Origin: Laspinema palackyanum D2a
Lineage (GTDB): Bacteria; Cyanobacteriota; Cyanobacteriia; Cyanobacteriales; Laspinemataceae
Length of the DNA: 49,873 nt
Reading direction: 5' to 3'
Assembly (NCBI GenBank): GCA_025370845.1
Contig: JAMXFF010000036.1
Location: 27,099 to 76,971 of the forward strand
Positions 14,189 through 33,271 of the stretch are shown in pieces. Positions within the stretch are counted from its first letter, which is position 1; each line of letters begins with the position of its first letter. The position numbers were made by a program, and so were the translations under genes. The notes under the pieces were generated by a model. That model made no database searches. It saw nothing but the letters and a program-made list of their open reading frames with translations, and was not told the DNA's origin.

Positions 14189-14764
14189 ATGACTGGAGAA
14201 AAAATTGGCAAATACCTCACCCTAGAAGAATTTTGTACCTGTACGCAAACTTATCGAACCTACAAGGATCAGATTAATCCCTTTCCCGAGAACCCCCAGG
14301 AAACGATTCCGGCAATTTCGGCGTTAATCGAGGCAATTGTCGATCCAGTTATCGACGAGTTCGGACGCGATCGGTTCCAGTTGACTTATGGATTTTGTTC
14401 CAAAGATTTAAAGCGCTATCTGGAGAAAAAAGACCCGGTAACGGGACAAAAAAATGGTCGGGTGGCCCCGGAATTGGACCAACATTTGGCCCATGAAGTC
14501 AATCAGAAGGGGAAGTATTATTGTCAGCGCCTTGGGGCCTCCTGCGATTTTCTGATTAGGGATTTATCCAGTGCAGATTTAGTGAATTGGATTTTGGCCC
14601 ATCAATTACCTTTTGATTCTCTCTATTTTTATGGGGAAACTCGACCAATTCATATTAGTTATGGTCCGCAACAGAAGCGGGATATTTGGACTTTTACTCG
14701 GGGGAGACAGCCGACTAAAAAGGGGATTGAGGCGTGGGTGGATTTGGCGAAATTGATTCAATAA
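14189..14764 (+). CDS. Peptidase M15-like conserved protein
   Basis: 191 residues, no signal peptide. The central section (TYGFCSKDLKRYL, then QRLGASCDFLIRD, then RPIHISYG) has the spacing of the M15 D-Ala-D-Ala peptidase / Hedgehog fold: a Ser/Lys region, a GxxxDF strand, and a late H-x-S strand. The usual first zinc His appears to be missing (QRLG instead of HxxG), so it may be inactive or bind something else. This is pattern-based inference; the protein could be an unrelated cyanobacterial family. It sits just outside the phosphorothioation island and converges with the Uma2 gene. Confidence 0.55.
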   Translation: MTGEKIGKYLTLEEFCTCTQTYRTYKDQINPFPENPQETIPAISALIEAIVDPVIDEFGRDRFQLTYGFCSKDLKRYLEKKDPVTGQKNGRVAPELDQHLAHEVNQKGKYYCQRLGASCDFLIRDLSSADLVNWILAHQLPFDSLYFYGETRPIHISYGPQQKRDIWTFTRGRQPTKKGIEAWVDLAKLIQ

Positions 14765-14905: not shown

Positions 14906-15448
14906 TTACTCAAATACTGGCGGCCATAAATCAGCGATCGGCATTTCCCAACCGGGGAATAATTCAGGAATGGTTAGTGTATCTTCAGTATTGAGTAGGG
15001 TGGTTTCTCCCGTGGGACGATAGACGGTGACGGTTTCTTTATCCGGGTCAACTAATATCCCGACGGTGCTTCCTAATGCTAAAAATAGTTTAATTTTATC
15101 GGCGAGGGGATTAAGGCGATCGCTTTTGGATTTAATCTCCACCATCAAATCGGGAACGAGGCGCACAAAATCCCGATTGCTGCGCTTAATTCGGTCCGCC
15201 AGAACAAAGGATACATCCGGTGCCCGCAAGTCCGTATTTGGCAGGATAAATCCCCCACTGGAATCATAAACTCGTCCTAATCTGCGGGGATTGACCCACA
15301 GTTTTAGTAAAAAGGTAAATTGAGCACCAATTTCGCTAGAGGTGTCGTCAGATGGACCCATTGCCTTAATTCCTCCATCGATTAATTCTAGGTTCCACTC
15401 GGGATGTTCTATTTGCAGTTGTTCCAAGTCAGCAATTGTTAAACTCAT
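14906..15448 (-). CDS. Uma2-family (DUF820) putative endonuclease
   Basis: 180 residues, the normal length for this family, which is greatly expanded in cyanobacteria. The PD-(D/E)XK-like core is seen as DLRAPDVSFV (conserved Asp) and LMVEIKSKSD (ExK), followed by a GILVDPD strand and a VYRP segment. The family is assigned to the restriction-endonuclease fold, but its biological role is mostly unknown and many members have been linked to mobile DNA. It lies next to the phosphorothioation island with 30 bp to the methyltransferase stop, but Uma2 genes occur in many contexts, so a functional link is not implied. Confidence 0.85.
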   Translation of the reverse strand: MSLTIADLEQLQIEHPEWNLELIDGGIKAMGPSDDTSSEIGAQFTFLLKLWVNPRRLGRVYDSSGGFILPNTDLRAPDVSFVLADRIKRSNRDFVRLVPDLMVEIKSKSDRLNPLADKIKLFLALGSTVGILVDPDKETVTVYRPTGETTLLNTEDTLTIPELFPGWEMPIADLWPPVFE

Positions 15449-15478: not shown

Positions 15479-18430
15479 TTAGCTTAAGTCCGGTTCAGGT
15501 TGCATTTGCTTTTTCTGACGCGATCGCAATGCTGCTGCTGCTTTGAGGATTTTCAAGCGATAGGGGTCGGCATCTTTGCGCCAATACACGATATTTCCCC
15601 GAATTTCAGCACAGTTTTCTTCTAACCTTTTTTGCCAATTTTTAAGGGTTTTAATCTCCCAGGGTCGGTCTAGCAATCCCCGATTTTCTTCCTGATGGGT
15701 CAGTTTAACCAGTTTCTCATACTGGGGATAGTCCGGAGTCACACAGGCATCTTTTCGATGAAGGATTGGCGGATTATCGTCGTTATCATAATCTCGATAA
15801 ATCACCCGCAAATCGATTAAGTCAATATCCATCCGGGTATGTAAAATGGGATGGGTTTCTTGGTCAAAATTGGGGTAAAATAAATAAGATATTCTCGGCT
15901 TTTTCAGGCTGAAATTAATTAAAGTGGCCTCATCCATCCGGCCAATTGCTCGACTCACCACCCCTTCATAAATTCTCAGCAAGGGTTCAAGGGTTTCTAA
16001 CGCGGAAACATGAACTGTAAAACTATTGGGTTTCAGCAACCCTACGGAACTATTTTTACAACTCCGCGCCACTAATTCGATATCATTTAAACTAAACACC
16101 AGTTGTTCTGCCATAATGCAGGCAGTCCGATAGGAGGGAAATAGCGCTTTGATATCATTTTGAATTTCTAACGGTAAATGAGACAGTTGGACTCGTTTTA
16201 ACAAGTTTGTGACGGCAATATAAGTGATGATATCCTTGCGACGTTTTTCGGTAATTGCCTCCCATTCTTCGGGGTGAGTGAACTCCATAATCACTTTAAA
16301 GGCGCGGCGCAAATTGCCAAATTCGGCGATGATTTGGGGTTCTTGGGGGAGTTCACCGGGAACAGGGAGTCTGCCGCGATCGCTGGCAAATTCCATGAGT
16401 GGCGTTAGGATTTCCCGATATTCATCAAAACTTTTCAGCAGTTTGGGAACCGTCGTCCGACTGCGGAAGCGATAAGATTGAATCCGTTGTGCCAATTGTT
16501 GGTCCCGAAAGACGAAATAAATCCCCAATGCCACCGGAATTGCTTCTACTTGCAGAACAGTTTCAATGTACTGTTTCAGTTCTTCCTGTTCATAATATTT
16601 CTGAAAAGTATGGCGGCGAGTAATTACCCCATCTCCATAAGCAACTTGACCACTATTTCGGTCATCCACTAAGACTAATGACGCAACAATTAACACTTTT
16701 TGGGTCAATTCCCAGGATTGAATTAGCGCTTGTCGGCGTTCTTCTAAATCTTCAATCACATTAATAATATAACCCAAATTCACTACGTCTGCGGGAGTCC
16801 GAGGTGTATCTGGGGAATAATACGGGTCCCAACCACTACTCGAAAATCCTTGTTCGGCAATTCGTTTAATGTCCCCCCCATGACCACATCCATAATCAAA
16901 AAAGGTCGTTCCTTCAGTAAAAAATCCCGCTTCTAATCCTAATCGCATCGGACGGGAGATAGCATTACGAACAATTGCAGCGCGATGGCGTTCGATTTTG
17001 GGGGTGGTTTTTAGGGGTTTATAGGTTGTCTTGGATTCGGAGGAGACAATGACCGTATGTCCCTGAATTTCGACCCCAGCAGCGGCCAAATAGTCTAACC
17101 ATCCATTCCGAGTTCCAATCCCCCGGGACTTGTTTAACAGTCCTAATTTTTCTTCTTCTCGGGTGAGGGTTTCAAACAGTTCATACAGCGGATAATCTGG
17201 GGTGACAAAGGTTTCTTTACGATGGAGAACCGGAGGATTATCCGCTTGGCGATAGTCTCGATAGCGAATTCGACCCTCGGGGAAATGAATCCGGAGACTT
17301 GCCTCTAATGCCGGATGTGGGTCAGTGTCGAATTCCGGGTAAAATAGATAAGAAATAATCGGTTTTTCAAGGTTAAATTTAATTAAAGTTGCGCCATCGA
17401 CTTGTCCTAGATGACGACGGACAACTGCTTCATATAATCGCAAAATTGGGTCTAAGGATTCTATCGCCCAAAAATGAACATACAATGCACCAGGTAGTTT
17501 TTTCCCCAGAGGACTATTTTGGCAAGCGGTGGTGACTGCATCTGGGGATTCTAATTGGGATAACAAGTTTTGCGCGGATTCTTTTGCGGTGGTCCAATTC
17601 CCAAATAAGGCGCGAAAATTAGCGGCAATTTGCGGAGAGAATTCGGAGAAGGAGGGAACGCACTGTTTTTCCCATATCAGACTTGCTAGATAAATTAAGG
17701 CATCTTGACGGCATTTTTCCTGAATTTGCTGCCAAATTTCCTCGGAGGTTGCTGCTTGAATTTGATAAAATGCCTGTTCTAAACTGCCAAATTGTCGGAT
17801 AATTGCTTTGGCGGTGGATAACTCCTTAATCTTAGGTAATCGTCCCCAGTCCGCGACAAACTCCATCAACGGGGTGAGGATTTCTTCTTGTGCAATTAAC
17901 GCTGTCGCATCGGGGTTGAGGGGAGGAATTATGGAACGCGATCGCCCTTGATTGAAGTGATAAATTTGAGCATCTGCCGGATTGCGAAAGATGAAATAAA
18001 CCCCCAATCCTGCTGGGGTTGCCTCTACGGATAAAATACGTTCCAGTTCCCTTTTCAGTTCTACTTTTTCATAATAGGTATGAACCGAATTCATGGGAAT
18101 CACGCCTTCTTTCCCATAAGCGATTTTTCCTTGATTGACCTCGGAAACGGTAACTGATGCAGCGACAATTAAAACATTTTCGGTCAATTTCCAGGCATCT
18201 TGCAAGACATCCTGACGTTCTTCTGGGGACTGGATTATATTGAGGATATCGGCAAGATAAACAACATCCGCAGGATGGTGATTGGCATCTCCCCCATAGT
18301 CCAAAAACGTGGTTTCAGCAGTCAGAATTCCCGCTTCTCCGGCGAGACGCAGGGGACGGGGGAGATGGCGGTGAACCGATGCCAAACGGTCTAGTTTGGT
18401 TTGGGGTAGCGGCAAACTGGATTTATCCAT
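15479..18430 (-). CDS. Phosphorothioation-associated methyltransferase, tandem duplicated
   Basis: About 983 residues from the ATG at 18430 (a GTG at 18499 would add 23 residues that do not look conserved). The protein holds two homologous copies of the Dnd-associated putative methyltransferase. Copy 2 (second half) has an intact SAM-binding segment, DYGCGHGGD, followed by SGWDPYY. Copy 1 matches it on both sides (TFLDYGGD joining directly to ADVVYLADILNII) but lacks about 20 residues covering the end of motif I and motif II. Both copies then share GVYFIFR/GIYFVFR, ISYLFYP and the NPPVLHRK/NPPILHRK plus VTPDYP motifs. Copy 1 is therefore probably a structural pseudo-enzyme. It is downstream of dndC-D-E on the same strand. 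The substrate is unknown. Confidence 0.85.
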   Translation of the reverse strand: MDKSSLPLPQTKLDRLASVHRHLPRPLRLAGEAGILTAETTFLDYGGDANHHPADVVYLADILNIIQSPEERQDVLQDAWKLTENVLIVAASVTVSEVNQGKIAYGKEGVIPMNSVHTYYEKVELKRELERILSVEATPAGLGVYFIFRNPADAQIYHFNQGRSRSIIPPLNPDATALIAQEEILTPLMEFVADWGRLPKIKELSTAKAIIRQFGSLEQAFYQIQAATSEEIWQQIQEKCRQDALIYLASLIWEKQCVPSFSEFSPQIAANFRALFGNWTTAKESAQNLLSQLESPDAVTTACQNSPLGKKLPGALYVHFWAIESLDPILRLYEAVVRRHLGQVDGATLIKFNLEKPIISYLFYPEFDTDPHPALEASLRIHFPEGRIRYRDYRQADNPPVLHRKETFVTPDYPLYELFETLTREEEKLGLLNKSRGIGTRNGWLDYLAAAGVEIQGHTVIVSSESKTTYKPLKTTPKIERHRAAIVRNAISRPMRLGLEAGFFTEGTTFFDYGCGHGGDIKRIAEQGFSSSGWDPYYSPDTPRTPADVVNLGYIINVIEDLEERRQALIQSWELTQKVLIVASLVLVDDRNSGQVAYGDGVITRRHTFQKYYEQEELKQYIETVLQVEAIPVALGIYFVFRDQQLAQRIQSYRFRSRTTVPKLLKSFDEYREILTPLMEFASDRGRLPVPGELPQEPQIIAEFGNLRRAFKVIMEFTHPEEWEAITEKRRKDIITYIAVTNLLKRVQLSHLPLEIQNDIKALFPSYRTACIMAEQLVFSLNDIELVARSCKNSSVGLLKPNSFTVHVSALETLEPLLRIYEGVVSRAIGRMDEATLINFSLKKPRISYLFYPNFDQETHPILHTRMDIDLIDLRVIYRDYDNDDNPPILHRKDACVTPDYPQYEKLVKLTHQEENRGLLDRPWEIKTLKNWQKRLEENCAEIRGNIVYWRKDADPYRLKILKAAAALRSRQKKQMQPEPDLS

Positions 18431-18548
18431 AAGATTGGAGGTGTAACTCAGCAGCGATCGTGACCCACCTTGTTCATACCACAAAACGGCTGCCGCCACT
18501 CTAAATTTTTATTGCCGCTACCCCGTCACGGCAGAAACCGATGTCCAA

Positions 18549-19076
18549 CTAGGCAGTAAATTTACTGCGGATTTCTTCGATTCGTTTGCGGTTCACCCCT
18601 AAATCAGATTGTCCTAACCGCGATGCCGATCGCACTTGAATCACTCCCGACTTGCGATCGAGAAAAAATTCCACATCATCCACATATCCCATTAAAGAAC
18701 TGGTAAATTCAGCATACAGATAATGGGCGTCGGATTTAATGACTTGAGCATTGTCCATCTCTTCAAGAATCTCCTTGAGATGAGCAAATGCCCGTTTTGC
18801 CGAAGACTCATATTTTAACGGTTCAATTTGATGCTTTTTATCCGTTGCTTCCGCTTGGGAAGAGACACAATTCGGAGAAGTCGGACAAGGGGCTAATTTT
18901 CCCATGCTTACCCCTAAATTATCGGGACGTTCCCCGGAAAAGGAGAACAAACTGGCGATCGCATTCGGTGAAATATCAGCAGCGAATGCCGCAGGAGTTG
19001 CACCAAAATAACACAAGATTGCCAAGGTGACCGAAAAACACAGGGTGAGAACTTTGACAGGAGATAACTTGTACAT
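18549..19076 (-). CDS. DUF1499 secreted protein
   Basis: 175 residues. A signal peptide (about 1-33, ending AAFAA) precedes a DUF1499 domain with the typical opening LAPCPTSPNCVSSQA and the later YLYAEFTSSLMGYVDDVEFFLD and IQVRSASRLGQSDLGVNRKRIE blocks. The family is common in photosynthetic organisms and has no established biochemical role. It is 58 bp after dndE and about 118 bp before the methyltransferase start, on the same strand, so it may be transcribed with the island. Nothing in its sequence suggests a role in DNA sulfur modification. Confidence 0.88.
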   Translation of the reverse strand: MYKLSPVKVLTLCFSVTLAILCYFGATPAAFAADISPNAIASLFSFSGERPDNLGVSMGKLAPCPTSPNCVSSQAEATDKKHQIEPLKYESSAKRAFAHLKEILEEMDNAQVIKSDAHYLYAEFTSSLMGYVDDVEFFLDRKSGVIQVRSASRLGQSDLGVNRKRIEEIRSKFTA

Positions 19077-19134: not shown

Positions 19135-19554
19135 TCACCGTTTCCCCTTGGATTCTTTCTCCCCAGTCTGACTCGCTACTGCCACCTCGATTAAATGCTC
19201 AATTTTCTTGATATTCGGGTCTCCTGCCAGATATCCAATTCCGCGATGCAGATGCAAGCGAAACTGATTTGCCAAGGTCTCTTTATCCGTCCCCAATCCA
19301 TCTTGGTGACATCGTTGTTTCAAGGCCAAAATTAAAATATCCGACATTTCCCCCCCAAAGACTCGCCAACTCATTTCGACGTTACTATCGGCAGGAATTG
19401 GTACTGGAGAAGGGGTGGAAGTTTCGGATAAGGATTTACAAAATGCCCAACGGCATAAAATATTCCATTGGTCAATTTTGGTATAACGTTTGAGTTTGCT
19501 AAGTTGTTCTTTTGCCGTTTGAGAGAGTTTAATTCGGTCGAGGGGTGGTTCCAT
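19135..19554 (-). CDS. dndE: DNA sulfur modification protein DndE
   Basis: 139 residues. It matches DndE in size and pattern: an N-terminal helix-rich segment (IKLSQTAKEQLSKLKRYTKIDQWNILCRWAF) and a C-terminal block with FRLHLHRGIGYL. DndE is a small basic protein reported to bind nicked DNA and needed for phosphorothioation with DndC and DndD. The Lys/Arg-rich tail (EKESKGKR) fits DNA binding. It is 30 bp downstream of dndD and so in the same operon. Confidence 0.88.
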   Translation of the reverse strand: MEPPLDRIKLSQTAKEQLSKLKRYTKIDQWNILCRWAFCKSLSETSTPSPVPIPADSNVEMSWRVFGGEMSDILILALKQRCHQDGLGTDKETLANQFRLHLHRGIGYLAGDPNIKKIEHLIEVAVASQTGEKESKGKR

Positions 19555-19584: not shown

Positions 19585-21567
19585 TTACCAGAAATAGCCT
19601 TTTTCTACAACAGTTTTTCGAGTTTCTGGTTGATATTTGAGCAGGTAGCTGTTGGCGATCGCCTCCTGTTCTACAAGATGCTCATACTCAGTTTTGCTAA
19701 TTTCTGTATCCGTAGACAACAGAATCACTTGATGAGATGCTGAGGGAAAATAGCGTTCAATCAGATTATTCCGATGGGAAGAATCCAACCGTCCCAATGG
19801 CGTATCGATCGCCACCGGGAGATGCCGTCCCGAGACTCGCGCCAATCCCCACAAAAAGGCGATCGCCAACAACTGCTTTTCCCCCGCAGAAAGACGATGT
19901 TTCGGGACAGGTTGACCCTCGGGGTTGTACAGGGATAATCCAAAACTTTGCGTATCAATGGCAATCCGATGGACTAAATCAACTTTATGTAACAGATAGC
20001 GGAAACAATCCGTTACCTCCACCTCTAACTTATTTAACTTCCGCAGAGTCAACCGTTCTTTAAACAATTTCAGGGTTTCCTGAACCTTCTTCGATGACTC
20101 AATAATATGTTCATCATTTTGGCGTTCAATACTCGTTTCACTATACACCGCCAGTTCTTTCTTAAACCCATCAATATCTTTGTTTAACTTATCGCATCGC
20201 TGCTGACCATTATTATAGTCCCCTTGCGCCTTCACCACTGCCGCTTGTGCCGCCTTCAATGCCGCATCCAGTTGTTCATAAATCTCCGGAGAAGGCGCAG
20301 ATGCCAGTTGCCGTTCATTGAACGTAATTTCTACCTCCAATGCTTCCAAAGACTGCAACTTTTCCCCGGCCAATTTTACCTGACTCGGCAGTTCATGACG
20401 CAAAATATTGGCCAACAAAGAAAGAGTTTCCTCATCTGCCGATAACCAGATATCCTCTTCCGAACCAATTTCGCGATCGAGTGCCTCATCCTCCTGTTCC
20501 AGAAAGAACTTAATCTTATCCACCTGTTGCGGTTTCAACTTCAATTTGTCCAGATATTCCACCAGACGACTACTGCGTTCCTTCACCACATCCCGCGCAA
20601 TTTTCGCCTGAAGAGACTTCGCCTCCTGTTCCCCTTGAACCTGCACCTCAGTCAGCAACGGTTGAATCAAAGCTAGGGGTAAACTCCCCCCAGCTAATTC
20701 TCCCAAAGACTCGCGCATCTGTTCCAAACTTCCCTCTAAACTGCGCTTTTGCTTTTCTAACTGAGTACGTTCCGCCGCAATTTTTCCCCCTTCCGAAATA
20801 AACTTATCCCAAGCATCCCGCTGCCGTTCATGGGCTTTTTCTAACTGATTTTGTAACCCTCCTAACTCTTGCTTTGCCTCATCCAAATCCTCGTTAGACT
20901 TAGACAACTTCTGTTCAATTTCTTCCAAACTCGCCAACTGCTTTGCACTTGCCAACTTCTTCTGTTTCCGCCGGACCAAAATATCCAAATCTATCGATAA
21001 CCGTTCCGCCAACTCCAACCCCAATAGAGATTGAATCGCATCCACCACCACCGGAGGCGGAGTTTCCTGTTCCGCCAACTCCTTCACCTGTTCCCCATCA
21101 AATAGAAACAGATTAGAAATCCCCAACGGCAACAAATTCTCGATATATTCATCCCAAATATTCGTCAAATCCGTTCGCGGCCAATCTCCTTCCAAAATCC
21201 CTAAAGTATCCTTCCCATCCTTCGGATTTGCTTCCCAATAGCGCACAATCCGCAACTCCACTGCTGCATCATTTTCAAAATGCTCAAACACCAACTCAAT
21301 CCGAGTTTTTTCCACCGGATCCGAGTCCCGAGTCACACATTGAGTCAGGAAATCACTATAATTCAAATTGCCTCGGGTCGAACATTGAGCCCGAGGACCA
21401 TAAAGCGCCAACCGAATGGCATCCATCAGGGTAGTTTTCCCCCCACCATTCATCCCCCCAAACAGGATAATCGGACGAGTTTCCCCATGAATTTGAGGAC
21501 GTAAATCAATCACCTGTCGTCCCATATAAGGACCAAAGTTTTGCAGAACCAGTTCAATAAAAATCAC
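19585..21567 (-). CDS. dndD: DNA sulfur modification protein DndD (SMC-like ATPase)
   Basis: 660 residues, the usual DndD length. Walker A is GGMNGGGKTTL (about 37-47). A long coiled coil occupies roughly 190-490. The ABC signature is LSAGEKQLLAIAF (about 556-568), followed by Walker B/D-loop VAIDTPLGRLDSSHR. This is the RecF/SMC architecture of DndD, which supplies ATPase activity to the sulfur-insertion complex and is thought to alter or nick DNA. No ATG is available: translation starts at GTG (21565-21567), giving the expected IFIELVLQNFGPY start. It is separated from dndC by 124 bp that include an inserted palindromic repeat. Confidence 0.93.
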   Translation of the reverse strand: MIFIELVLQNFGPYMGRQVIDLRPQIHGETRPIILFGGMNGGGKTTLMDAIRLALYGPRAQCSTRGNLNYSDFLTQCVTRDSDPVEKTRIELVFEHFENDAAVELRIVRYWEANPKDGKDTLGILEGDWPRTDLTNIWDEYIENLLPLGISNLFLFDGEQVKELAEQETPPPVVVDAIQSLLGLELAERLSIDLDILVRRKQKKLASAKQLASLEEIEQKLSKSNEDLDEAKQELGGLQNQLEKAHERQRDAWDKFISEGGKIAAERTQLEKQKRSLEGSLEQMRESLGELAGGSLPLALIQPLLTEVQVQGEQEAKSLQAKIARDVVKERSSRLVEYLDKLKLKPQQVDKIKFFLEQEDEALDREIGSEEDIWLSADEETLSLLANILRHELPSQVKLAGEKLQSLEALEVEITFNERQLASAPSPEIYEQLDAALKAAQAAVVKAQGDYNNGQQRCDKLNKDIDGFKKELAVYSETSIERQNDEHIIESSKKVQETLKLFKERLTLRKLNKLEVEVTDCFRYLLHKVDLVHRIAIDTQSFGLSLYNPEGQPVPKHRLSAGEKQLLAIAFLWGLARVSGRHLPVAIDTPLGRLDSSHRNNLIERYFPSASHQVILLSTDTEISKTEYEHLVEQEAIANSYLLKYQPETRKTVVEKGYFW

Positions 21568-21691: not shown

Positions 21692-23320
21692 TTAATTCTC
21701 TCCATCCTCATCATCAGAATTAATACTGGGATATTTCATCGTCCCCCAACTTAACTGTTTAATCCCTGCCACATCCCCATCAGTTACAGCAGCTTTCATC
21801 TCCCGATTTTTGAGCTGTTTAATCGCATAAACATCCCCTTCCTGAGCAGCAGCTTTTAGGTCCCGCTTGTAATGAGCATTTTCAATCGCTTCTTCCTGCG
21901 ATCGCGAACTACTCTCAAAGCATTTCTCTAACGCATCATACACCCCAGTACGCCGGGATTTAGTATGATACTTGTACTCCGTCCCAATCAATTTCGACAT
22001 CAATTCCAAGTGCATCGTATCCGGTTTGCAGATTTCATCCAAAACCTCCCACTCATCACTTCCCCACAACTGATTACCAGCGCCAGGACGAGGATCCTCA
22101 AACGGTTCCCCCGTCACTTCTTCATAAATCTTAGGCAAGCTATCGTCAAATTCATGCTTTTCTTCCAGCCAAATTCTCCGAATTTCACTAAGCTCGTCTA
22201 ATGTGATGAGGGTGATATCCCGCATATCTTCGGGACCATTTTTTCGGATTCCCGTTTGAGCCGAGAGAACTTTTCTCAGCCAATGCTCCCGCCATTTTTT
22301 TAGGTAAGGTCCAGGAATAGGCACGACAGCCATTTCCCCTTCATTATTGCGCTCAAAGAGTTCAACTTTTCCATAAATACGACGGAAGTCTCGTTTATCG
22401 TGGTCTTCATGAATATCTAATTCATTGCGAATTTCCAATAGTGGCATCATCCATTCTTTTTCATCATCATTTTGAATCATGGCTTGCATGGATTTATCTT
22501 GATTGACAAGGGTACAAACCCAGCAACCAAAACGAGAATCCCCACAACTTGGGGTACTGGTATCAACGACGAGGGGACATTCATTGTCTGCGGTTGCACC
22601 CCGATACATCGTAAATAAATCTTTATTGCTTTGTCCCCAGGGATTTGACCATTGATTCAAATAAATCCAGACTTCATCATTTCGCCAGTCTTCGATAGGA
22701 GTATAGACTAAAGAATTAATCAAACTTGATCTAGGACTTAGGCGATCGCGTACCCTTTTTTCTTCGTGTTTTTGCATGGTTGCCGAACGGCTGACGCTTT
22801 CAGCCTTACGCATACCTAAAACAAGAATGACTTCCCCATTGTCCCGAACCACGCTACGAATGAAGTTGTTAGCTGGCTGAATTTTTAAACGATCTGTACA
22901 CCAGCGAAAGCGGGATCGAGGTGCTGGATAGCCTTTTCCAATTAAACAAACCCAGAATGTATCTTTAACTTTGGGGTGAAGCAGATGTGGCTCAAATGGC
23001 ATTTTTTGTTCCATCGCTGCTTCTTTGATTCGGTCAAGTGATCTGCGAACCCACGTAGCAACAATTGGATTTTCGACCAAGGTGTCTGTTGTAATTACAT
23101 GAATAGTTTTGGTTCGTTTTTCTATTGGAAGTTGAGCGACTGCATTCCAGATTAACTGTAATGTTGCCGTGCTGTCTTTTCCTCCTGAATATCCTACAAT
23201 CCAGGGAACTTCATCTAAACAATATAAAGATTGAACTTCTTGAGTTAGTTTTTCTATGTCCTCTACTAATTCATCCACAGTGCGAGGTGGGAATAATGAC
23301 ATTTGCGATTGTTCTGACAT
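21692..23320 (-). CDS. dndC: DNA sulfur modification protein DndC (PAPS-reductase-like ATP pyrophosphatase)
   Basis: 542 residues. The PP-loop reads GYSGGKDSTATLQ (about 44-56), as in DndC and PAPS reductases. The Cys set for an iron-sulfur cluster is seen as SCGDSRFGCWVC (about 262-273). DndC uses ATP to activate DNA and carries the sulfur given by a cysteine desulfurase. The C-terminus (about 490-530) contains two imperfect repeats, DLKAAAQEGDVYAIKQL and EMKAAVTDGDVAGIKQL, followed by an acidic tail. I do not know if these are standard for the family. The start is supported by AAGGAG 10 nt upstream. It heads the dndC-D-E operon and is divergent from a DGQHR-protein gene. Confidence 0.94.
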   Translation of the reverse strand: MSEQSQMSLFPPRTVDELVEDIEKLTQEVQSLYCLDEVPWIVGYSGGKDSTATLQLIWNAVAQLPIEKRTKTIHVITTDTLVENPIVATWVRRSLDRIKEAAMEQKMPFEPHLLHPKVKDTFWVCLIGKGYPAPRSRFRWCTDRLKIQPANNFIRSVVRDNGEVILVLGMRKAESVSRSATMQKHEEKRVRDRLSPRSSLINSLVYTPIEDWRNDEVWIYLNQWSNPWGQSNKDLFTMYRGATADNECPLVVDTSTPSCGDSRFGCWVCTLVNQDKSMQAMIQNDDEKEWMMPLLEIRNELDIHEDHDKRDFRRIYGKVELFERNNEGEMAVVPIPGPYLKKWREHWLRKVLSAQTGIRKNGPEDMRDITLITLDELSEIRRIWLEEKHEFDDSLPKIYEEVTGEPFEDPRPGAGNQLWGSDEWEVLDEICKPDTMHLELMSKLIGTEYKYHTKSRRTGVYDALEKCFESSSRSQEEAIENAHYKRDLKAAAQEGDVYAIKQLKNREMKAAVTDGDVAGIKQLSWGTMKYPSINSDDEDGEN

Positions 23321-23594: not shown

Positions 23595-24770
23595 ATGATG
23601 GACAACCACTTACCTGAAACAGAAAGTTCCCCCCGCCTCGATCCCTTCCTTGAACCCTATTTCGCAAAGCATCATCGGGAAAAGTGTTATCCCGGTCTGC
23701 TTTTCCGCCAGGGGAAACGGCAGATGGTGCAAATCAATGTCCCTGCCGATGATTTGCCGACGCTTCTCCAAGCCAAACCCTCTAGTGACAACGACCCTGA
23801 TTCGGGTAAAAATCGCCCAGAAGTTAAGGGTCATGCCGAGGAAATCAAAGAATATATTCTCAAACGTGCCACCAAAGGCATACCCTGGATTTTGGGAACC
23901 CTAACGGCAAATGTCGATCCCAGCAAGATTGATATCATTGAATTGGGGAGAGGGATTTGCTTAGTCGTCATTCCTCGGGGGGTCAAGTTGGACATTACCG
24001 ATGGACAACATCGTAAAAGTGCCATCCAAGATTTGATTATGGGTGAATTTGGCGAGGTAATTGGCGATAATGATTTCCCCATTACTCTCGTCTTAGAAGC
24101 AGACTTTAACCAGTGCCAAACTGATTTTAGAGATATGGCGCAAACGAAACAACTTGATAAATCACTGCTGTTGTCGTTTGGGGAATTTGAAGGTCGGGTC
24201 GGCATCACTAAACGAGTTGTCGATGAAGTTTTCATGTTTCGAGGCAAAACGGAAAAGATTAAAAACTCTCCTGCTCTTAAAAAGAAATTGATTTACACAA
24301 ACAATTACATAATTAGGGCGGTTAGTTGTGCGTTTACTAATGACCCAAACAATGAATTACGAGAATATGATGTAAATCAAGCATCGGATTCTTTGGTGAC
24401 AACCCTGAACCAGTTCTTTTCAGAATGTAGTCATACTCGGCATATTTATGAAACCGAAGCTGAAAACTTAACGATTGAACAAGTGGCAGAATTTCGAGAA
24501 AATTGTGTTTTGGGAATAAGTGTAGGCTTGGATATTCTAGGCCGACTACTTTATTACACTTACAATCAACATACTATGTCTTTTGAATCCAGTCAAGTAT
24601 CGCAAATAGCCCTCCTAAATTGGTCAAGAAACAGTCATTTATGGAAAGACAATGTGGTATTAATCGATCCTAAGCCTAAAAATCCAGCCAAACCCTACAA
24701 AATTTCTTATGTTTCAAGCGCAGTAAGAATTGCTGTAAATCGGGCAAAAACTCATCTAGGATGGATGTAA
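23595..24770 (+). CDS. DGQHR-domain (DndB-class) protein 1
   Basis: 391 residues. The family motif is TDGQHRKSAI, with Asp at residue 136, set in a DndB-like context: a preceding VIPRGVKLDI strand and a following ITLVLEAD strand. DGQHR proteins are found in phosphorothioation and related modification islands. DndB itself acts as a transcriptional regulator and is not essential for modification. This protein is clearly diverged from the canonical DndB next to it, with its own C-terminal helical region (about 220-391). It faces away from dndC and converges with dndB, 80 bp apart. Its separate role is unknown. Confidence 0.85.
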   Translation: MMDNHLPETESSPRLDPFLEPYFAKHHREKCYPGLLFRQGKRQMVQINVPADDLPTLLQAKPSSDNDPDSGKNRPEVKGHAEEIKEYILKRATKGIPWILGTLTANVDPSKIDIIELGRGICLVVIPRGVKLDITDGQHRKSAIQDLIMGEFGEVIGDNDFPITLVLEADFNQCQTDFRDMAQTKQLDKSLLLSFGEFEGRVGITKRVVDEVFMFRGKTEKIKNSPALKKKLIYTNNYIIRAVSCAFTNDPNNELREYDVNQASDSLVTTLNQFFSECSHTRHIYETEAENLTIEQVAEFRENCVLGISVGLDILGRLLYYTYNQHTMSFESSQVSQIALLNWSRNSHLWKDNVVLIDPKPKNPAKPYKISYVSSAVRIAVNRAKTHLGWM

Positions 24771-24850: not shown

Positions 24851-25918
24851 TTATTCCAAACGCTTCTCTTCCTCCGTTAGTGGCAAATTTAAGCGCTGTT
24901 TTAGATAAGCAGTCATCCGCATCACGCTGATTGACCCTGGGGACAGTTGACCCTTGAAAATCACCCTCCCTTCCCAGTCTAAATTCGATCGCGACCAATC
25001 GACTTGCCGCAAGGGGTCCAAATGGTCTCGCCAGGTGTCTGGATAGGTCCGGAGTAACGTTGCACCCACTGCGCCTAATCCGATTAAGACGATCGCCTGG
25101 GTATGCAGGTAATCTCGCCGCATCTCCAAGGCGCTGACTTTTCGTTCTAATACCAATTGCCAATCTGGAATCTGCCGACTGACGGCATTCCAGTAATCCA
25201 CTGCCTGTTGGATTTGTGCCTCTAGGGGTTCCCCTTCCCGGTCGGCCAATAATGTCAAGGTTGCCTGACAAATATGGGGGAGTATAAAGAGTTTACCAGA
25301 CCGGGTGCTTAAATGGCTGCGTTCGGTTTCCGTGAGGGTGCGGAATACCTCCACTTGCTGATATACGCCTCTCCCTAATGCTGCTGCGCGATCGCGATGG
25401 TCATACAGCAGATTTAAGGCAGGGTCCGATCGCACCGGGTAGCGGTTGAGGTCACTAAAAATTTGCTGCGATCGCTTCAAACCCACATCCAGAAACAAAA
25501 TCAGGGGAATGGTTTCATACCCCAACTCCGGATTTTCCTTCAATGCCGACTCAAATGCCACCCGCCGATGTTGGCCGTCATTGATGGTAAATCGCGCATC
25601 CATTGGCACTCGCAAGCGTCCGATTTTTCGCCCTTCCGCCTCGGTTCCCAGGGGTTCAAAGGTGATATCCGCATCAATCGAGGCCGTAATCGCCGAGACC
25701 GTATAACTCTTGGGATTATCCAAAATATACTGGGTAATTTGTGGCACCCGGGTCCGATTCAGCGATCGCCTCGCCCGATTTTCTGGCGGCGTTTCCCCCT
25801 GTTCCAAAGGGAACAGTTTCGGCAGCAGTCGCAGAGGACACATGGACACATAGTATTCCCGTCCTGCCTGTATTCCTCGGATTACAGGTAAGACATATTC
25901 AAACGCCGTATTTAGCAC
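24851..25918 (-). CDS. dndB: DNA sulfur modification protein DndB
   Basis: 355 residues, the usual DndB length. It has the expected N-terminal region (AFEYVLPVIRGIQAGREYYV), then RVPQITQYILDNPKSYTVSAITASID, and INDGQHRRVAF with Asp114 in the DGQHR motif, followed by IPLILFLDVGLKRSQQIFSDLN. Known DndB proteins repress dnd transcription and influence modification frequency. It is transcribed in the same direction as dndC but is separated from it by a plus-strand paralog. It is divergent from a second paralog, with a candidate operator between them. Confidence 0.9.
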   Translation of the reverse strand: MLNTAFEYVLPVIRGIQAGREYYVSMCPLRLLPKLFPLEQGETPPENRARRSLNRTRVPQITQYILDNPKSYTVSAITASIDADITFEPLGTEAEGRKIGRLRVPMDARFTINDGQHRRVAFESALKENPELGYETIPLILFLDVGLKRSQQIFSDLNRYPVRSDPALNLLYDHRDRAAALGRGVYQQVEVFRTLTETERSHLSTRSGKLFILPHICQATLTLLADREGEPLEAQIQQAVDYWNAVSRQIPDWQLVLERKVSALEMRRDYLHTQAIVLIGLGAVGATLLRTYPDTWRDHLDPLRQVDWSRSNLDWEGRVIFKGQLSPGSISVMRMTAYLKQRLNLPLTEEEKRLE

Positions 25919-26126: not shown

Positions 26127-27788
26127 ATGAGTCAGTCGGGGAACTTTCCTGCTATGTTTAAGGATGTGCCTATCGATGTGAAAGTCCCCATGAACCCTCC
26201 CCGGAATCCAGCAACAGACCTTGCCAGCAAAATCCTGGAACAGGAAAATAGCGATCGCGAAGCGTTGGCGTTATTGCTGGATCGCCACCTCTCCCGTAGC
26301 GATCGCCTCCTGGTCCAGAAAACCCAGATGGGGAATACCGAGGCATTTATCGGGTCCGTGACCTTAGAATGGTTAAGCAGTCGGGTTCGTTTCGCCTCCC
26401 AACTGCCACTCTTTCAGAAAAAATATGACCCCCAAACCGATAATGTCGTCCGGGACCGAGAAACCATTGACGAATTGCTACAACGTCCCTTAGATTGGTC
26501 CCGCCAAGCAGCTTTGACCCTGTATTTAGTGGCACGAAAAAACCATAAATTTCCCGCTTTGTTGGTAGTGCAAAGTCCGCCGTGGGTGGATAATCCCGAT
26601 GCGCCAGAGTGGGATAAAACTGGGCGATCGCGTCAATCCACTTGTGATTTCGTTGCTTTAGACAAAGACAACACTATCGGACTCTTAGATGTGTCGGAAA
26701 AAGTCGCAATTTTTGCTCTTGATGGTCAACATCGACTGATGGGAGTCCAGGGATTAATGGAACTGATTAAAACCGGACGACTCCAACGCTATAACAAAAA
26801 TAAAAAGGCCGTGGGTGCAGCAATTACCATCGATGATTTAAAACAACAATATCAGGTGGAATCGGCAGACCTGCAAAATTTAGCCTCGGAACGAATTGGC
26901 ATCGAATTTATTCCCGCCGTCCTGGAAGGAGAAACCCGAGACGAAGCAAGGCGGAGGGTCCGGTCAATTTTTGTTCATGTTAACTTAATGGCGGTAAACC
27001 TGAGTAAAGGACAACTTGCTGTTTTAAATGAAGATGATGGATTTTCGATTATAGCGCGGAAAGTTGCCGTTACTCATCCTTTATTGAAAGAGAAAAAGAA
27101 ACGGAATGCGCGGGTGAATTGGGACAGTGCGACTGTGGCGGCAAAATCAACGGTGTTAACCACGCTTCAGGCGCTTAAGGATATGTCAGAACGCTACTTA
27201 GGTCCGAAATTTCCCCAGTGGCGATCGGCGAATAACAAAGGGTTGGTTCCGATTCGTCCTGAAGATGACGAACTAGAGGAAGGGTTAGAGGAATTTAACG
27301 CATTATTTGATGGATTATGCACCTTAGTCAGCTATCAGCAACTTGACTCCGGGACCGAAACCCCAGAAATGCGCCGGTTTAGTCATGAAAAAGGGGGTGG
27401 TGATGGAAATTTACTGTTTCGTCCCATTGGACAAATTGCCTTAGCGCAAGCGATGGGAATTTTAGTATTTGAGAAAGGGTTTTCCCTGAAAGAGTTGATA
27501 GAAAAGTTGCAAGAATTTGATGTGGATGGGGGATTTAGTGGGATGGAATATCCCCAGTCCCTATGGTATGGGGTGTTGTATGACCCGAGTAAACGGCGGG
27601 TGTTAGTTTCCGGTCGAGATTTGGCGGCGAAGTTGTTGGTTTATATTTTAGGGGGAATTGAGGATGATTATGAACGTGCAAATCTCCGCAAGGCATTAGC
27701 GGATGCGCGGACTTTTGAAGGGAAAGCAGTTAGTTTTGAGGGGAAATTTGTGAAACCGAAGGAGGTGGGTTTGCCGGAGGTTTTGTGA
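26127..27788 (+). CDS. DGQHR-domain (DndB-class) protein 2, long form
   Basis: 553 residues, about 200 longer than DndB. The motif ALDGQHRLMGV is centred on Asp199. The N-terminus (about 1-190) includes a segment on a dense run of HIP1-like DNA, and the region after the motif has FVHVNLMAVNLSKGQLAVLNEDD, which resembles the DndB fold's SDLN segment but with an insertion. The C-terminal 200 residues are helical and Glu/Lys-rich. It probably forms a separate DGQHR subfamily within the same island. It diverges from dndB across 208 bp. Confidence 0.85.
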   Translation: MSQSGNFPAMFKDVPIDVKVPMNPPRNPATDLASKILEQENSDREALALLLDRHLSRSDRLLVQKTQMGNTEAFIGSVTLEWLSSRVRFASQLPLFQKKYDPQTDNVVRDRETIDELLQRPLDWSRQAALTLYLVARKNHKFPALLVVQSPPWVDNPDAPEWDKTGRSRQSTCDFVALDKDNTIGLLDVSEKVAIFALDGQHRLMGVQGLMELIKTGRLQRYNKNKKAVGAAITIDDLKQQYQVESADLQNLASERIGIEFIPAVLEGETRDEARRRVRSIFVHVNLMAVNLSKGQLAVLNEDDGFSIIARKVAVTHPLLKEKKKRNARVNWDSATVAAKSTVLTTLQALKDMSERYLGPKFPQWRSANNKGLVPIRPEDDELEEGLEEFNALFDGLCTLVSYQQLDSGTETPEMRRFSHEKGGGDGNLLFRPIGQIALAQAMGILVFEKGFSLKELIEKLQEFDVDGGFSGMEYPQSLWYGVLYDPSKRRVLVSGRDLAAKLLVYILGGIEDDYERANLRKALADARTFEGKAVSFEGKFVKPKEVGLPEVL

Positions 27789-27969: not shown

Positions 27970-28440
27970 TTATAAGAATCGACTGAGGTCAAATTCATCG
28001 GGTTCTGAGGTGTTTTTTTTGAAGCGTTCGGAGAGGAGGATGAGCAGGATTCTTTCGGTATAGTCTACGGCACCTCGTAACTCTTCTCGTAAGATTTCTA
28101 AACCCCCATTAGCATATTCTTCAAAGATATGAGCGCGGATTTCTTCGGAATCGGGGTCGTTGGGGGCGATAATTTTGGAGTCTTTGGTTTCAGCGATCGC
28201 CAGTAATTTAATCACCAAATCATATCCTTTCGTGACGAAGGTATCGATGTCGATTGGACCCGGTTCGGTTTTTGAAATTGCGCCGAGGGGAACTCGTTTT
28301 TTGCGTTTGGCACCCAAGGCGGCAGCAAAAACTAGAACATCGGTAAAGTGACGAAAGACGCCGGTTTTGTTGTCCGATGAAGTTAAGGATGTGACTAAAT
28401 CTGCTTTATCTTTGGCAACCTTAATTCGATATGCACCCAT
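27970..28440 (-). CDS. Dnd system-associated protein 4-like
   Basis: 156 residues. Size, the opening YRIKVAKDKADLVTSL, the FRHFTDVLVFAAALGAKRK block and the C-terminal EYANGGLEILREEL segment match the small family annotated as Dnd-associated protein 4. No catalytic motif is visible. Proteins of this type are found next to phosphorothioation genes and have no known activity. It is the leftmost of the minus-strand restriction-side genes. Confidence 0.7.
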   Translation of the reverse strand: MGAYRIKVAKDKADLVTSLTSSDNKTGVFRHFTDVLVFAAALGAKRKKRVPLGAISKTEPGPIDIDTFVTKGYDLVIKLLAIAETKDSKIIAPNDPDSEEIRAHIFEEYANGGLEILREELRGAVDYTERILLILLSERFKKNTSEPDEFDLSRFL

Positions 28441-28487
28441 TGCGATCGGCCTGTATTGTATTCAACCGTGAACAGGATTCAGGAAGC

Positions 28488-28527
28488 AATGCCTCCATCC
28501 TACTAATCTAGCATAGATGGAGGCATT
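28488..28527. terminator. Terminator-like hairpin
   Basis: Perfect 12-bp arms AATGCCTCCATC (28488-28499) and GATGGAGGCATT (28516-28527) with a 16-nt loop. It follows the lectin-like gene on the minus strand and precedes the Dnd-associated gene. There is only a short T run, so termination is likely but not certain. Confidence 0.6.
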
Positions 28528-28550
28528 TTCATCATTAGGGAAGCACAAAT

Positions 28551-29504
28551 TTACGGTTCGACTCGATACACACCCACATCATCAATGATAAATTCTGTGG
28601 AATCTTGACCATCTGTATTTCCTGTAGAAAAGAACAAATAGTCCAAATTATCAAACTTAAATCCATAAGGAGTATAAGTCGCAGCAGCAGACTGAGAACC
28701 AGCGCGGAAGGTTAATAAATCTCTCGGTGTTAAATCATCAACTCCCGGACTGGCATAGTAACTAATTGACCCATCCGGATTGAATGCCATGCCAATTGTC
28801 CACCATCCTGTATTGGTAAATTTTTGTTCGCTGGCATTGACATCTACGCCTTCATTATTAGCGCGAACCACCCAGCGAAAAGAGCGCCGACCGCTACTTT
28901 CTTTGTCCATCCAAATCCAAATTCCCGGCCAATAATCCGCTAATTGACCATCCGATTTCCGTCCCGTTGCACCGACGCGAAATCCGATATGATATCCACC
29001 CATATCGTGCCATTCATTCAGGGGAGGGAGATAAATTCGGGTGATGACACTCAACCCAGAACCTAGAGGAATATCCCCGATGGTTTTTCCGGGAATAATA
29101 TTCAGCAAATCATCTTGCTGAACTGTCCCTTCCGTAATATTAGGAGTGCCAGAATTTCTAGTTCTTAAACGTAGGGAATATTGACTTTCTGGGATGCCTC
29201 CGGGTGGGGTTGTGACTTGTTCCACAATATCCGGATGTCCCCGAGTCGGTCCCTCAATCCACCTGCCATTGGTGGAGACCCCAGTGGGAGCATTCCCCGC
29301 ATGAATCACTTCCACGGGACCCGAACCGGGATTGTGATATTGATTGTGGAGTTTAGGGTTATTAAAGTTATAACTCCAACCGACTTCCTCGAAGGTATCC
29401 CCCAACTCAGGGAGGCGGGTCCCTCTCCCCGGTGGCATCAATTCGGCGCCATTGGGTAGGGTGAAGGCGACTAAAATGCCTGCTAGGACTTGTGCTGCTT
29501 TCAT
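28551..29504 (-). CDS. Secreted lectin-like beta-sandwich protein
   Basis: 317 residues. A short signal peptide (about 1-20, MKAAQVLAGILVAFTLPNGA) precedes a single domain of alternating hydrophobic strands. The region FDNLDYLFFSTGNTDGQDSTEFIIDDVGVYRV at the C-terminus and HDMGGYHIGFRVG in the middle resemble concanavalin-A-like (LamG or polysaccharide-lyase-type) folds. No active-site residues can be named. It sits inside the phosphorothioation island but has no sequence link to DNA modification. Confidence 0.65.
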   Translation of the reverse strand: MKAAQVLAGILVAFTLPNGAELMPPGRGTRLPELGDTFEEVGWSYNFNNPKLHNQYHNPGSGPVEVIHAGNAPTGVSTNGRWIEGPTRGHPDIVEQVTTPPGGIPESQYSLRLRTRNSGTPNITEGTVQQDDLLNIIPGKTIGDIPLGSGLSVITRIYLPPLNEWHDMGGYHIGFRVGATGRKSDGQLADYWPGIWIWMDKESSGRRSFRWVVRANNEGVDVNASEQKFTNTGWWTIGMAFNPDGSISYYASPGVDDLTPRDLLTFRAGSQSAAATYTPYGFKFDNLDYLFFSTGNTDGQDSTEFIIDDVGVYRVEP

Positions 29505-29707
29505 TAAATTATCAAGTTTTACGCGGTCTTAAGACGTAGTTGTAGCCTCAATTGTGCCAGTTTACAGCAGAATTGTGCCAGTTTGCGCTTTGGGGGCAGT
29601 CATTGGTCATTGGTTATTGGTTATCTAGGGTTGATAAAGGCGATCGCCCTCTAGTAAATAGAAGGCGATCGCAATTAATTTCCCTCTAAAATTTGGGAGT
29701 CAAAGAT

Positions 29708-30691
29708 TTAGTCATTTTCAGAAAATCTCCCTAATAATTCTTCCCGAGATAGAGTTGCTAATTGCAGCATAAGGGCGCTCAATTCCTCCTGGGATAATGC
29801 CAAAAGCGGGTCAATTAGCGCGGAAAGTTCCTCATCTAATTCCCCAAAGCGTACCCGCAAGAAATTTTCTATCAATTGGCGCTGTCCCTGCTGAATACCT
29901 CGCTGTTCTCCAAGTTGAATACCTCGCTGTTCTCCGATTTGAATTCCTCGCTGTTCTCCAAGTTGAATACCTCGCTGTTCTCCTTCGCGGATTGCTTGTT
30001 CTCGGTCTTGTTGATAAAGTGGTGCTAATCGCATAATTAACTCCCGTTCTTCTGCATCGTTACTTTGATTAACTTGTAAGTTTTGTCGCAGGTTGTAAAG
30101 CATTTCTAAGGCAACTGCCCGAAACGGGTTATCCTGTGGAAGTGCTTCGAGTTCGTCGATCGCTCGTTTTTGGACGCTTCCCCTTCCCAGAAGTCTCAAC
30201 CAGAGGGTTTCTGAGGTTCGGGGTAGTTGGTGAATCACGACGATCGCCGTTCTCAGAGAGTCCCCCATCAAGTACACCCCAGGCAACCAATTTGGTTCTA
30301 TTATAGCTCTAAATCCATTTAAAAGGTTGGCTGAAGCGGTGGGGGTGAGTATCCATAATTTGGGTAAGTCAGACTCTTGAATCCGGGTATTATTCCGGTT
30401 CGCTTCTCGTTGGTAGTCTCCCCGAACTTCCAGCAATTTCAAGAGGCAATTACAGATATCGTCGGTGTTAGCGGGGTTACGAAAGGGTTCAAAGATTGCT
30501 GGAGTCCCGGCGAATCGTCCTAATAATCCTAATCCGGCAAGGTTGGCATCGGATTCGGGAGAGGGTGCAAACCAAACATCGATTTCTCGGACTTCTCCGG
30601 CAACTCGTCGGGAGGGTTTGACTTCGCCGTAGGGGGAAAGCAATTCTTCTAAGTAATCTTTGGCAAATTGGTCATGGATAAATCGGGTCAT
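29708..30691 (-). CDS. Rpn/DUF4351-like cyanobacterial protein with GEQRGIQ repeats
   Basis: 327 residues. The N-terminal 110 residues contain REIDVWFAPSPE, a likely PD-(D/E)XK-type Asp, in a pattern shared with Rpn-like putative nucleases. After a helical middle come four 8-residue repeats of the form GEQRGIQL (about residues 235-265), encoded by 24-bp DNA repeats at about 29885-29990. The C-terminus (ELDEELSALIDPLLALSQEEL) is like the DUF4351 tail. Such genes are very common in cyanobacteria and often mobile. Activity is not established. Confidence 0.7.
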   Translation of the reverse strand: MTRFIHDQFAKDYLEELLSPYGEVKPSRRVAGEVREIDVWFAPSPESDANLAGLGLLGRFAGTPAIFEPFRNPANTDDICNCLLKLLEVRGDYQREANRNNTRIQESDLPKLWILTPTASANLLNGFRAIIEPNWLPGVYLMGDSLRTAIVVIHQLPRTSETLWLRLLGRGSVQKRAIDELEALPQDNPFRAVALEMLYNLRQNLQVNQSNDAEERELIMRLAPLYQQDREQAIREGEQRGIQLGEQRGIQIGEQRGIQLGEQRGIQQGQRQLIENFLRVRFGELDEELSALIDPLLALSQEELSALMLQLATLSREELLGRFSEND

Positions 30692-30811
30692 TGGTCATTT
30701 GTCATTTGTCGGTGGTCATTTGTCATTGGTCATTTGTTTAAGGTTAGAAACCGGGTTTCTTAATGAAGTTTATGCTAAATTGCAGCAATTTTGGCTACAA
30801 ACCCGGTTTCT
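30690..30811. repeat. CATTTGTCATT tandem tract and AGAAACCGGGTTTCT palindromes
   Basis: GGTCATTTGTCATT-type units are repeated at about 30690-30738. A 15-nt palindromic AGAAACCGGGTTTCT lies at 30746-30760 and a related AAACCCGGTTTCT at 30799-30811. Another copy of this palindrome is at 3568-3582. These are common cyanobacterial dispersed repeats and fill the gap between two minus-strand genes. Confidence 0.65.
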
Positions 30812-30839
30812 GGTTCCTTGGATAAAAGCTACCGTTGTT

Positions 30840-33202: not shown

Positions 33203-33271
33203 TTGATGATTTTCTCCCCGATTGAAGTGTTACCCAATTGTCCTTAATTTTACCGGGCTTGACCCGAACTG

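Follow-up and report, generated by a model that had tools for sequence, protein, structure and literature searches.

A tandem phosphorothioation-associated methyltransferase of Laspinema palackyanum with a pocketless first copy

Live and dead methyltransferase domains related by duplication are known from METTL3-METTL14, Trm6-Trm61 and PRMT7, in the last case within one chain. Here we describe a tandem protein of the family TIGR04096, encoded in a DNA phosphorothioation locus of the cyanobacterium Laspinema palackyanum D2a; the whole stretch of 49,873 nucleotides that was analysed is called the window. Both halves of the protein match the family model, which describes one 478-residue unit with DndC as its genome-level partner, but here there are two units, the first of them without a pocket for S-adenosylmethionine (SAM). 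Unlike in the pairs named above, most members of the family lack the dead domain, and it is the domain behind it that is kept. Because the C-terminal domain of copy 1 (CTD1) is conserved, the dead domain drifts and the commonest cyanobacterial form retains only the CTD, the best reading of copy 1 is that of a further CTD which still carries a dead, eroding methyltransferase, rather than, in the first place, an allosteric partner.

Within phosphorothioation-linked systems the nearest precedent is DndH, which holds an inactive adenine-methylase domain with an eroded SAM loop (Rakesh, Aravind and Krishnan 2024, accessible part of PMC10853773). The two share a methyltransferase domain that belongs to a phosphorothioation-linked system and has lost its SAM loop. 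As described in that part of the source, DndH differs in being a DNA adenine methylase with a nested target-recognition domain and an adjoining nuclease, whereas the dead domain described here is paralogous, and fused, to a live enzyme that belongs to a different class. TIGR04096 is the NCBIfam model dnd_rel_methyl, 'DNA phosphorothioation-associated putative methyltransferase'. In the accessible portions of the open-access literature, this full name is found only in a gene table of PMC8416521, which lists the gene of Rhodococcus qingshengii RL1 directly behind dndA-E. The strings TIGR04096, M15 and cyano are absent from the main text of the 2024 survey of these systems (PMC10853773), and the word 'methyltransferase' is absent from PMC8569181. 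A dndBCDE set has been reported in Microcoleus (accessible part of PMC8546630).

Chain layout and SAM pocket of the tandem protein

The gene (15479-18430, minus strand) encodes 983 residues from an ATG. Along the chain, hmmscan matched TIGR04096 twice with 1032.8 bits, above the curated cut-off of 150 bits, and the halves scored singly reached 647.7 and 378.3 bits. Residue numbers follow the 1006-residue open reading frame (ORF) that begins at a GTG (15479-18499). Copy 1 consists of a pseudo-methyltransferase domain (17945-18382, residues 40-185), delimited by the TIGR04096 match, the AlphaFold model and its selection pattern, a helical stretch (17525-17944, residues 186-325) with a sub-threshold match to HNH_repeat (23.2 bits, cut-off 26) and CTD1 (17039-17524, residues 326-487). 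Copy 2 repeats this order with a live methyltransferase domain (16460-16993, residues 503-680; TIGR04096 match, model and Foldseek), a helical, HNH-repeat-like stretch (16049-16459, residues 681-817) and CTD2 (15575-16048, residues 818-975). All of these parts lie on the minus strand.

The SAM pocket of copy 2 runs from DYGCGHGGD (residues 535-543) to the GWD of SGWDPYY (16826-16897, residues 535-558). Copy 1 reads DYGGD (residues 67-71), then ANHHP and then ADVVYL. Copy 2 has 32 residues between DYG and ADVV where copy 1 has 7, so that 25 residues are missing at the junction DYG-GDANHHP-ADVV (18272-18295, residues 69-76). The motifs named in the initial annotation, DYGCGHGGD and SGWDPYY in copy 2 and DYGGD in copy 1, were confirmed in the translated ORF. 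Its account of the gap, roughly 20 residues with DYGGD passing straight to ADVVYL, holds for the loss itself but underestimates the size and overlooks the intervening ANHHP. The full glycine-rich motif and the strand-2 acid, which mark class I SAM enzymes, occur in every one of the 124 full-length live units, of which window copy 2 is one. Copy 1 lacks them, with 25 residues gone and 3 of 13 pocket invariants kept.

A structure prediction of the full chain, as the initial annotation had suggested, was run with AlphaFold (80 sequences; mean predicted local distance difference test (pLDDT) 84.6; predicted template modelling score (pTM) 0.51) and shows no SAM site in the modelled copy 1. In copy 2, strand 532-535 is followed by helix 542-549, strand 553-557 and strand 570-576. 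In copy 1, strand 65-68 passes directly to strand 77-82, so that helix A and strand 2 are gone, and with them the glycine loop and the ribose-binding acid. Since the pTM is only 0.51, the relative placement of the halves is not confidently predicted.

Class I SAM enzymes were the best Foldseek matches, though weak ones (best E 2.0e-3), for example glycine sarcosine methyltransferase, Trm9 and cg3271; no match reached an E of 0.001 or better, and none of the 50 entries listed was described as a DNA methyltransferase. A PDB sequence search with the whole chain gave nothing significant (best E 0.37). DNA N4/N6-amino methyltransferases carry the catalytic motif [DNS]PP[YFW], and DNA C5-cytosine methyltransferases a conserved Pro-Cys dyad. 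Both identities were considered for the live domain and rejected: the former motif occurs in 0 of 124 live methyltransferase domains, and PC in just 9 of 124, which is not conservation.

The ATG at 18430 (residue 24) is the more likely start than the GTG at 18499, because residues 1-35 combine a ratio of non-synonymous to synonymous substitution (dN/dS) of 0.74 with a very low dS, unlike the remaining chain, and residues 1-42 are modelled with a pLDDT below 50. The dN/dS and the low dS suggest that the stretch above the ATG (18430-18499) is conserved non-coding rather than coding sequence.

Conservation of the double form and its place in the family

Among the best 80 of 246 relatives, which were kept, seven (L003-L009) have the double form. 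A scan of the family to which the window belongs found TIGR04096 in 13 of 14 genomes; the double form is present in all eight genomes of the window genus (its own included), in three of a second genus and in one each of two more genera, and the double protein of one genome (G396) is broken across contig ends. After removal of duplicates (six pairs with identical cores), there are 14 distinct double proteins from five lineages: eight from the window genus, three from a Planktothricoides-like group and one each from G229, G393 and Oscillatoria princeps (L008). The SAM pocket is absent from copy 1 in all 14. The junction reads LDYGGDxNHxPADVVY in the window genus, LDYATAELRHPADIVY in the Planktothricoides-like group, LDFSQDDPQAADVVY in G229 and LDCSGDGNTPRTPADIVN in O. 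princeps. In G393 (L130), copy 1 is more worn than that of the window and has neither a recognisable strand-1 motif nor a glycine motif, with its CTD kept, and G229 has lost the HNH-like stretch behind the dead domain. The copy 2 pocket is present in the double proteins of every group compared. As 124 of 124 live units have the pocket and 14 of 14 double proteins lack it in copy 1, the loss is not due to chance. Thus the alignment across homologs, which had been proposed earlier, brought up no double protein with an intact copy 1, and, as in PRMT7, a paralogous dead domain is kept in the same chain across species. Two genomes of the window genus also hold two small standalone methyltransferase-domain relatives side by side on opposite strands (L153:1408-3158 and L154:344-2151; 303-305 and 214-232 residues), both with SAM motifs.

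A column was taken as invariant if cyanobacterial live units agree in it to 97% or more; there are 13 such columns in the pocket, 40 in the remaining methyltransferase domain, 20 in the helical/HNH stretch and 22 in the CTD. Besides its three pocket invariants, window copy 1 keeps 23 of the 40 elsewhere in the methyltransferase domain; in the helical/HNH stretch it keeps 16 of 20, and in the CTD 20 of 22. Over the copies 1 of the window, L004 and L006-L009, the corresponding ranges are 0-3 of 13, 21-25 of 40, 16-19 of 20 and 19-22 of 22, where in L008 and L009 the aligner left the first domain residues unplaced and 7 of the 40 columns and strand 1 were counted as lost.

Among the eight genus members (95% bootstrap intervals), dN/dS in copy 1 is 0.15 (0.105-0.222) for the dead domain, 0.267 for the helical/HNH-like stretch and 0.119 (0.076-0.172) for CTD1; in copy 2 it is 0.062 (0.031-0.096) for the live domain, 0.057 for the helical stretch and 0.073 (0.037-0.116) for CTD2. 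Six genus members gave, in the same order, 0.149, 0.269 and 0.106 for copy 1 and 0.067, 0.064 and 0.072 for copy 2, and show no gap columns across residues 36-185. The dead domain is thus under purifying selection, which is relaxed relative to the live domain. Together with the open frame and a pocket loss common to five lineages, these values bear out the initial description of a built-in pseudo-enzyme pair in one chain. Between genera, the window and O. princeps are identical at 42/107 positions of the dead domain, 73/107 of the live domain, 99/158 of CTD1 and 94/158 of CTD2, and the window and Planktothricoides at 48/107, 83/107, 97/157 and 91/158, respectively. CTD1 and CTD2 are about equally identical and the dead domain less so; therefore CTD1 is held as firmly as CTD2 while the dead domain drifts, though not freely.

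We searched 386 cyanobacterial genomes for the family. TIGR04096 scored above the cut-off in 104, DndC was found in 94 and both in 92; 92 of the 94 DndC genomes thus hold TIGR04096, a near-constant companion of DndC in cyanobacteria that is yet barely named in the open-access literature searched. The Fisher test of this co-occurrence takes no account of relatedness among the genomes. The 104 full-unit rows, sorted by ORF length, come from 102 genomes (G159 and G385 contribute none, G170 and G197 two each) and comprise 68 ORFs of the size of a CTD plus a unit (640-850 residues), 27 single units (<580), seven of 580-640 residues and two double forms. Within 20 kb of dndC lie 20 of 27 single units, 3 of 68 CTD-plus-unit forms, 0 of 7 in the 580-640 class and 2 of 2 double forms, counts in which contig breaks may hide linkage. 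Any of dndC, dndD and dndE is near 8 of those 43 best-80 loci with at least 7 kb on both sides. The CTD-plus-unit form (about 640-850 residues, e.g. on pSYSM of Synechocystis PCC 6803) has the same order as the tandem protein, a CTD followed by methyltransferase, helical stretch and CTD, and its N-terminal CTD falls in the same clade as CTD1. It differs in having no methyltransferase remnant before that CTD and in standing rarely beside dndC, whereas both double forms in this count do, though two others (L009, G393) do not.

A CTD is present in all 96 cyanobacterial segments ahead of a live unit, and a methyltransferase match in nine, which are the nine double proteins in the set; the remaining 87 hold a CTD without such a match. 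In a FastTree phylogeny, all 94 cyanobacterial N-terminal CTDs included form one clade (support 0.803), made up of nine with a dead domain (0.902) and 85 without (0.821). A tree of methyltransferase domains only left copy 1 unresolved (0.158), and a tree of unit positions 64-470 was used instead, built from a hand-picked part of the set and rooted on proteobacterial homologs; G229 copy 1 was left out because hmmalign did not place its methyltransferase part. Here the six sampled copies 1 form a clade (97% ultrafast bootstrap), and a split with a support of 91 parts them, the outgroup and a distant single unit (L117) from the other single units and all sampled copy-2 units. The branching order within copies 1 agrees with that of their copies 2, the deepest copy-2 node being weak (24).

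Outside cyanobacteria, one proteobacterial plasmid homolog adjoins dndB-C-D-E. A Methylobacterium plasmid (L121:971-9938) carries a CTD-plus-unit methyltransferase beside SspG/SspH-like genes, with no dndC, dndD or dndE annotated in the 17.8 kb shown. The homolog on an Arthrobacter plasmid (L126:5971-7432) is split over two overlapping reading frames.

The CTD modelled alone with AlphaFold2 (residues 317-490, 122 sequences) reached a pLDDT of 93.4. The structure search with it returned one viral match (E 5.7e-6), a nameless protein of 1232 residues, and a search of PHROGs gave nothing convincing. A standalone CTD is encoded by a 190-residue gene of an uncultured 485-kb phage (L157:4947-6638); a few hundred bases further, past one or two small overlapping ORFs, lies a separate methyltransferase-like ORF of at most 225 residues (weak, 13.7 bits). 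This split suggests that the CTD is able to work as a module of its own. Seven IMG/VR contigs, some of which may be proviral or cellular, carry a single unit (L162), a CTD plus a unit (L165, L166), a standalone CTD (L163), partial forms (L164, L168) and a CTD with a partial methyltransferase match only (L167). The CTD, as the part that is kept, may bind nucleic acid or a partner.

A probable reading: one live methyltransferase with two C-terminal domains

We consider it rather probable that the chain combines one live methyltransferase, with copy 2 as its predicted one working SAM-dependent enzyme, and CTD1 as a second substrate- or partner-binding CTD. The initial annotation had seen in copy 1 a possible allosteric or DNA-binding partner. 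With 42/107 identical positions in the dead domain against 73/107 in the live one, and 87 of 96 segments without it, the dead methyltransferase does not look like the part that is conserved.

Several observations weigh against our interpretation. Purifying selection on the dead domain is clear and exceeds what would be expected of a mere relic. A single CTD was found in each of the nine single-unit genomes that were checked; the family can therefore do without two CTDs per chain, although single units could dimerise. All five proteobacterial plasmid proteins have an N-terminal CTD-like stretch, so that the CTD duplication may predate the cyanobacterial event or be separate from it; these stretches sit on long branches of the CTD tree and may or may not share an origin with the cyanobacterial ones. 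The unit tree has several poorly supported nodes (16 to 50), and the long branches of copy 1 in it may be attracted towards the root. The CTD fold has no significant match among solved structures (PDB, best E 0.14; none at or below 0.001). Finally, the double forms of L009 and G393 have no dndC, dndD or dndE in the stretch examined, and most CTD-plus-unit forms do not stand beside dndC.

The selection on the dead domain would fit a pair of the METTL14 or PRMT7 kind, in which the dead domain packs on the live one and is needed for substrate positioning or activation. The dead domain is under purifying selection (dN/dS 0.15) and ungapped over residues 36-185 in six genus members, keeps 21-25 of 40 invariants outside the pocket and is modelled in blocks with a pLDDT of 78-95 across residues 51-180. 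We nevertheless regard this pair as unlikely, given that the placement of the halves is not confident, that 87 of 96 segments ahead of a live unit do without the dead domain, that it is eroded further in G393 and has lost the adjoining HNH-like stretch in G229, and that from genus to genus it has changed far more quickly than its live counterpart. Plain decay, with a copy 1 methyltransferase domain that is roleless and on its way out, would account for the relaxed constraint, more so in the HNH-like stretch (0.267), and for the graded erosion among relatives, but it is improbable: dN/dS is far below 1 with an upper bound of 0.222, the frame is open in the members translated and the domain persists in five lineages.

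A rebuilt pocket in which copy 1 would still take up SAM or a different nucleotide is less likely again. Members of the window genus retain the DYG of strand 1 as well as the strand that follows the gap, but the glycine loop, helix A, strand 2 and the acid are absent from the model. Of the substrate-side invariants, in the numbering of the unit, T126, F127 and Q128 are replaced in copy 1 of each of the three lineages compared, and D118 in two. An error of sequencing or assembly in the window genome can practically be dismissed, as the same gap recurs in separate assemblies of seven further genus members and of three other lineages, and in a more worn form in a fourth. One live methyltransferase joined to a second CTD remains our preferred account, with the dead domain as a constrained remnant that possibly helps the live domain.

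The history that we propose would begin with an old tandem duplication of a unit of methyltransferase, helical/HNH-like stretch and CTD. After it, the first catalytic site would have become dispensable, and its SAM pocket was probably cut out once, in the ancestor of a few filamentous genera, where what is left of the dead domain would persist as a spacer under structural constraint. The most frequent cyanobacterial form would have lost the dead domain altogether and kept CTD1 alone ahead of the live unit. This order of duplication, pocket loss and domain loss is what we infer from the forms present today. The two CTDs together would form the functional unit and would hold a DNA or nucleoprotein substrate by two half-sites, or by its two faces, for one methylation centre. 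Presumably the enzyme works as part of phosphorothioation, with DNA or something bound to it as the target; DNA itself, as the putative substrate, is a first and tentative guess.

The phosphorothioation locus and an M15-peptidase-like companion

The window holds a cyanobacterial phosphorothioation locus in which dndC (21692-23320), dndD (19585-21567) and dndE (19135-19554), all identified by profile matches, are followed on one strand (minus) by a gene for a DUF1499 protein (18549-19076) and by the TIGR04096 gene. A DUF1499 gene also occurs at the TIGR04096 loci of L003-L008 (6 of 80 loci) and in L116. Upstream of dndC-dndD-dndE sit dndB (24851-25918, minus strand; 451.3 bits, cut-off 328) and two further genes known from profile matches, encoding a second DndB/DGQHR-domain protein (23595-24770, plus strand) and a third DGQHR-domain protein (26127-27788, plus strand). 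A CxC/Pbe-type cassette adjoins the dnd genes (27970-34669); it comprises DNA phosphorothioation-associated protein 4 (TIGR04062, dnd_assoc_4; 27970-28440, minus strand), two unassigned genes, a PbeC-like ABC ATPase (30840-32912, minus strand) and a PbeA-like/dnd_restrict_1 helicase (TIGR04095; 33272-34669, minus strand). Beyond it, 35812-41250 encodes a protein of 1812 residues that combines Ser/Thr kinase, AAA_16, GAF and histidine-kinase domains. Directly downstream of the methyltransferase gene, a Uma2-family protein (14906-15448, minus strand; profile match) is a bystander or a partner.

Convergent with the methyltransferase gene lies a gene for an M15-peptidase-like protein of 191 residues (14189-14764, plus strand). 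It has no NCBIfam, Pfam or PADLOC match; Peptidase_M15_3 was not matched up to E 5, let alone at its Pfam gathering score, and a PDB sequence search with the family gave nothing significant (best E 0.13). By hhalign, the family aligned to a member of PF08291 Peptidase_M15_3 with a probability of 97.8, with H99, D120 and H155 on its H, D and H. The family retains DQH, DF and HxS, and H99, D120 and H155, which we take to be zinc ligands, are invariant in 21 of 21 sequences. The His-Asp-His set is thus shared with Peptidase_M15_3; the neighbour differs in having no Pfam match of its own and in its link to a dnd-system methyltransferase.

In Methylibium, in Massilia and on the IMG/VR contig L165, the TIGR04096 protein has a relative of the 191-residue protein as its C-terminal part, and on L166 a relative is a separate gene immediately ahead of the TIGR04096 gene. 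Matches at E 0.001 are found in 55 of the 386 genomes, 49 of them strong (E 2.8e-44 or better; four of these with a stop inside the match). Six weaker genomes were left out, namely G185 (broken pieces, best E 1.2e-21, TIGR04096 below cut-off) and G382, G112, G202, G269 and G279 (E 2.4e-4 to 4.4e-7). TIGR04096 is present in every one of these 49 strongly matching genomes, and in 25 of them the two genes lie at most 7 kb apart. By ORF class, other and mixed classes left out, the gene is present in 45 of 68 two-CTD or double genomes versus 2 of 26 single-unit genomes. We regard it as a newly recognised companion of TIGR04096, which would work in the same step as the methyltransferase.

More speculatively, and with clear reservation, cyanobacterial phosphorothioation may have an unrecognised standard companion, in which a two-CTD methyltransferase with one active site, its first catalytic domain dead or removed, and an M15-like metal hydrolase would act on the same substrate. 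The CTD, for which no solved relative was detected, would be its recognition module, perhaps for phosphorothioated or otherwise marked DNA, and the double form a fossil intermediate that reveals the origin of this enzyme. Fusion and co-occurrence point to the M15-like gene as a partner in the same step. For the family as a whole, the double form shows which part of the unit matters when two are present, as the CTD is kept and the second active site is not, and it suggests how a pair of enzymes may turn into one working enzyme with a built-in helper.

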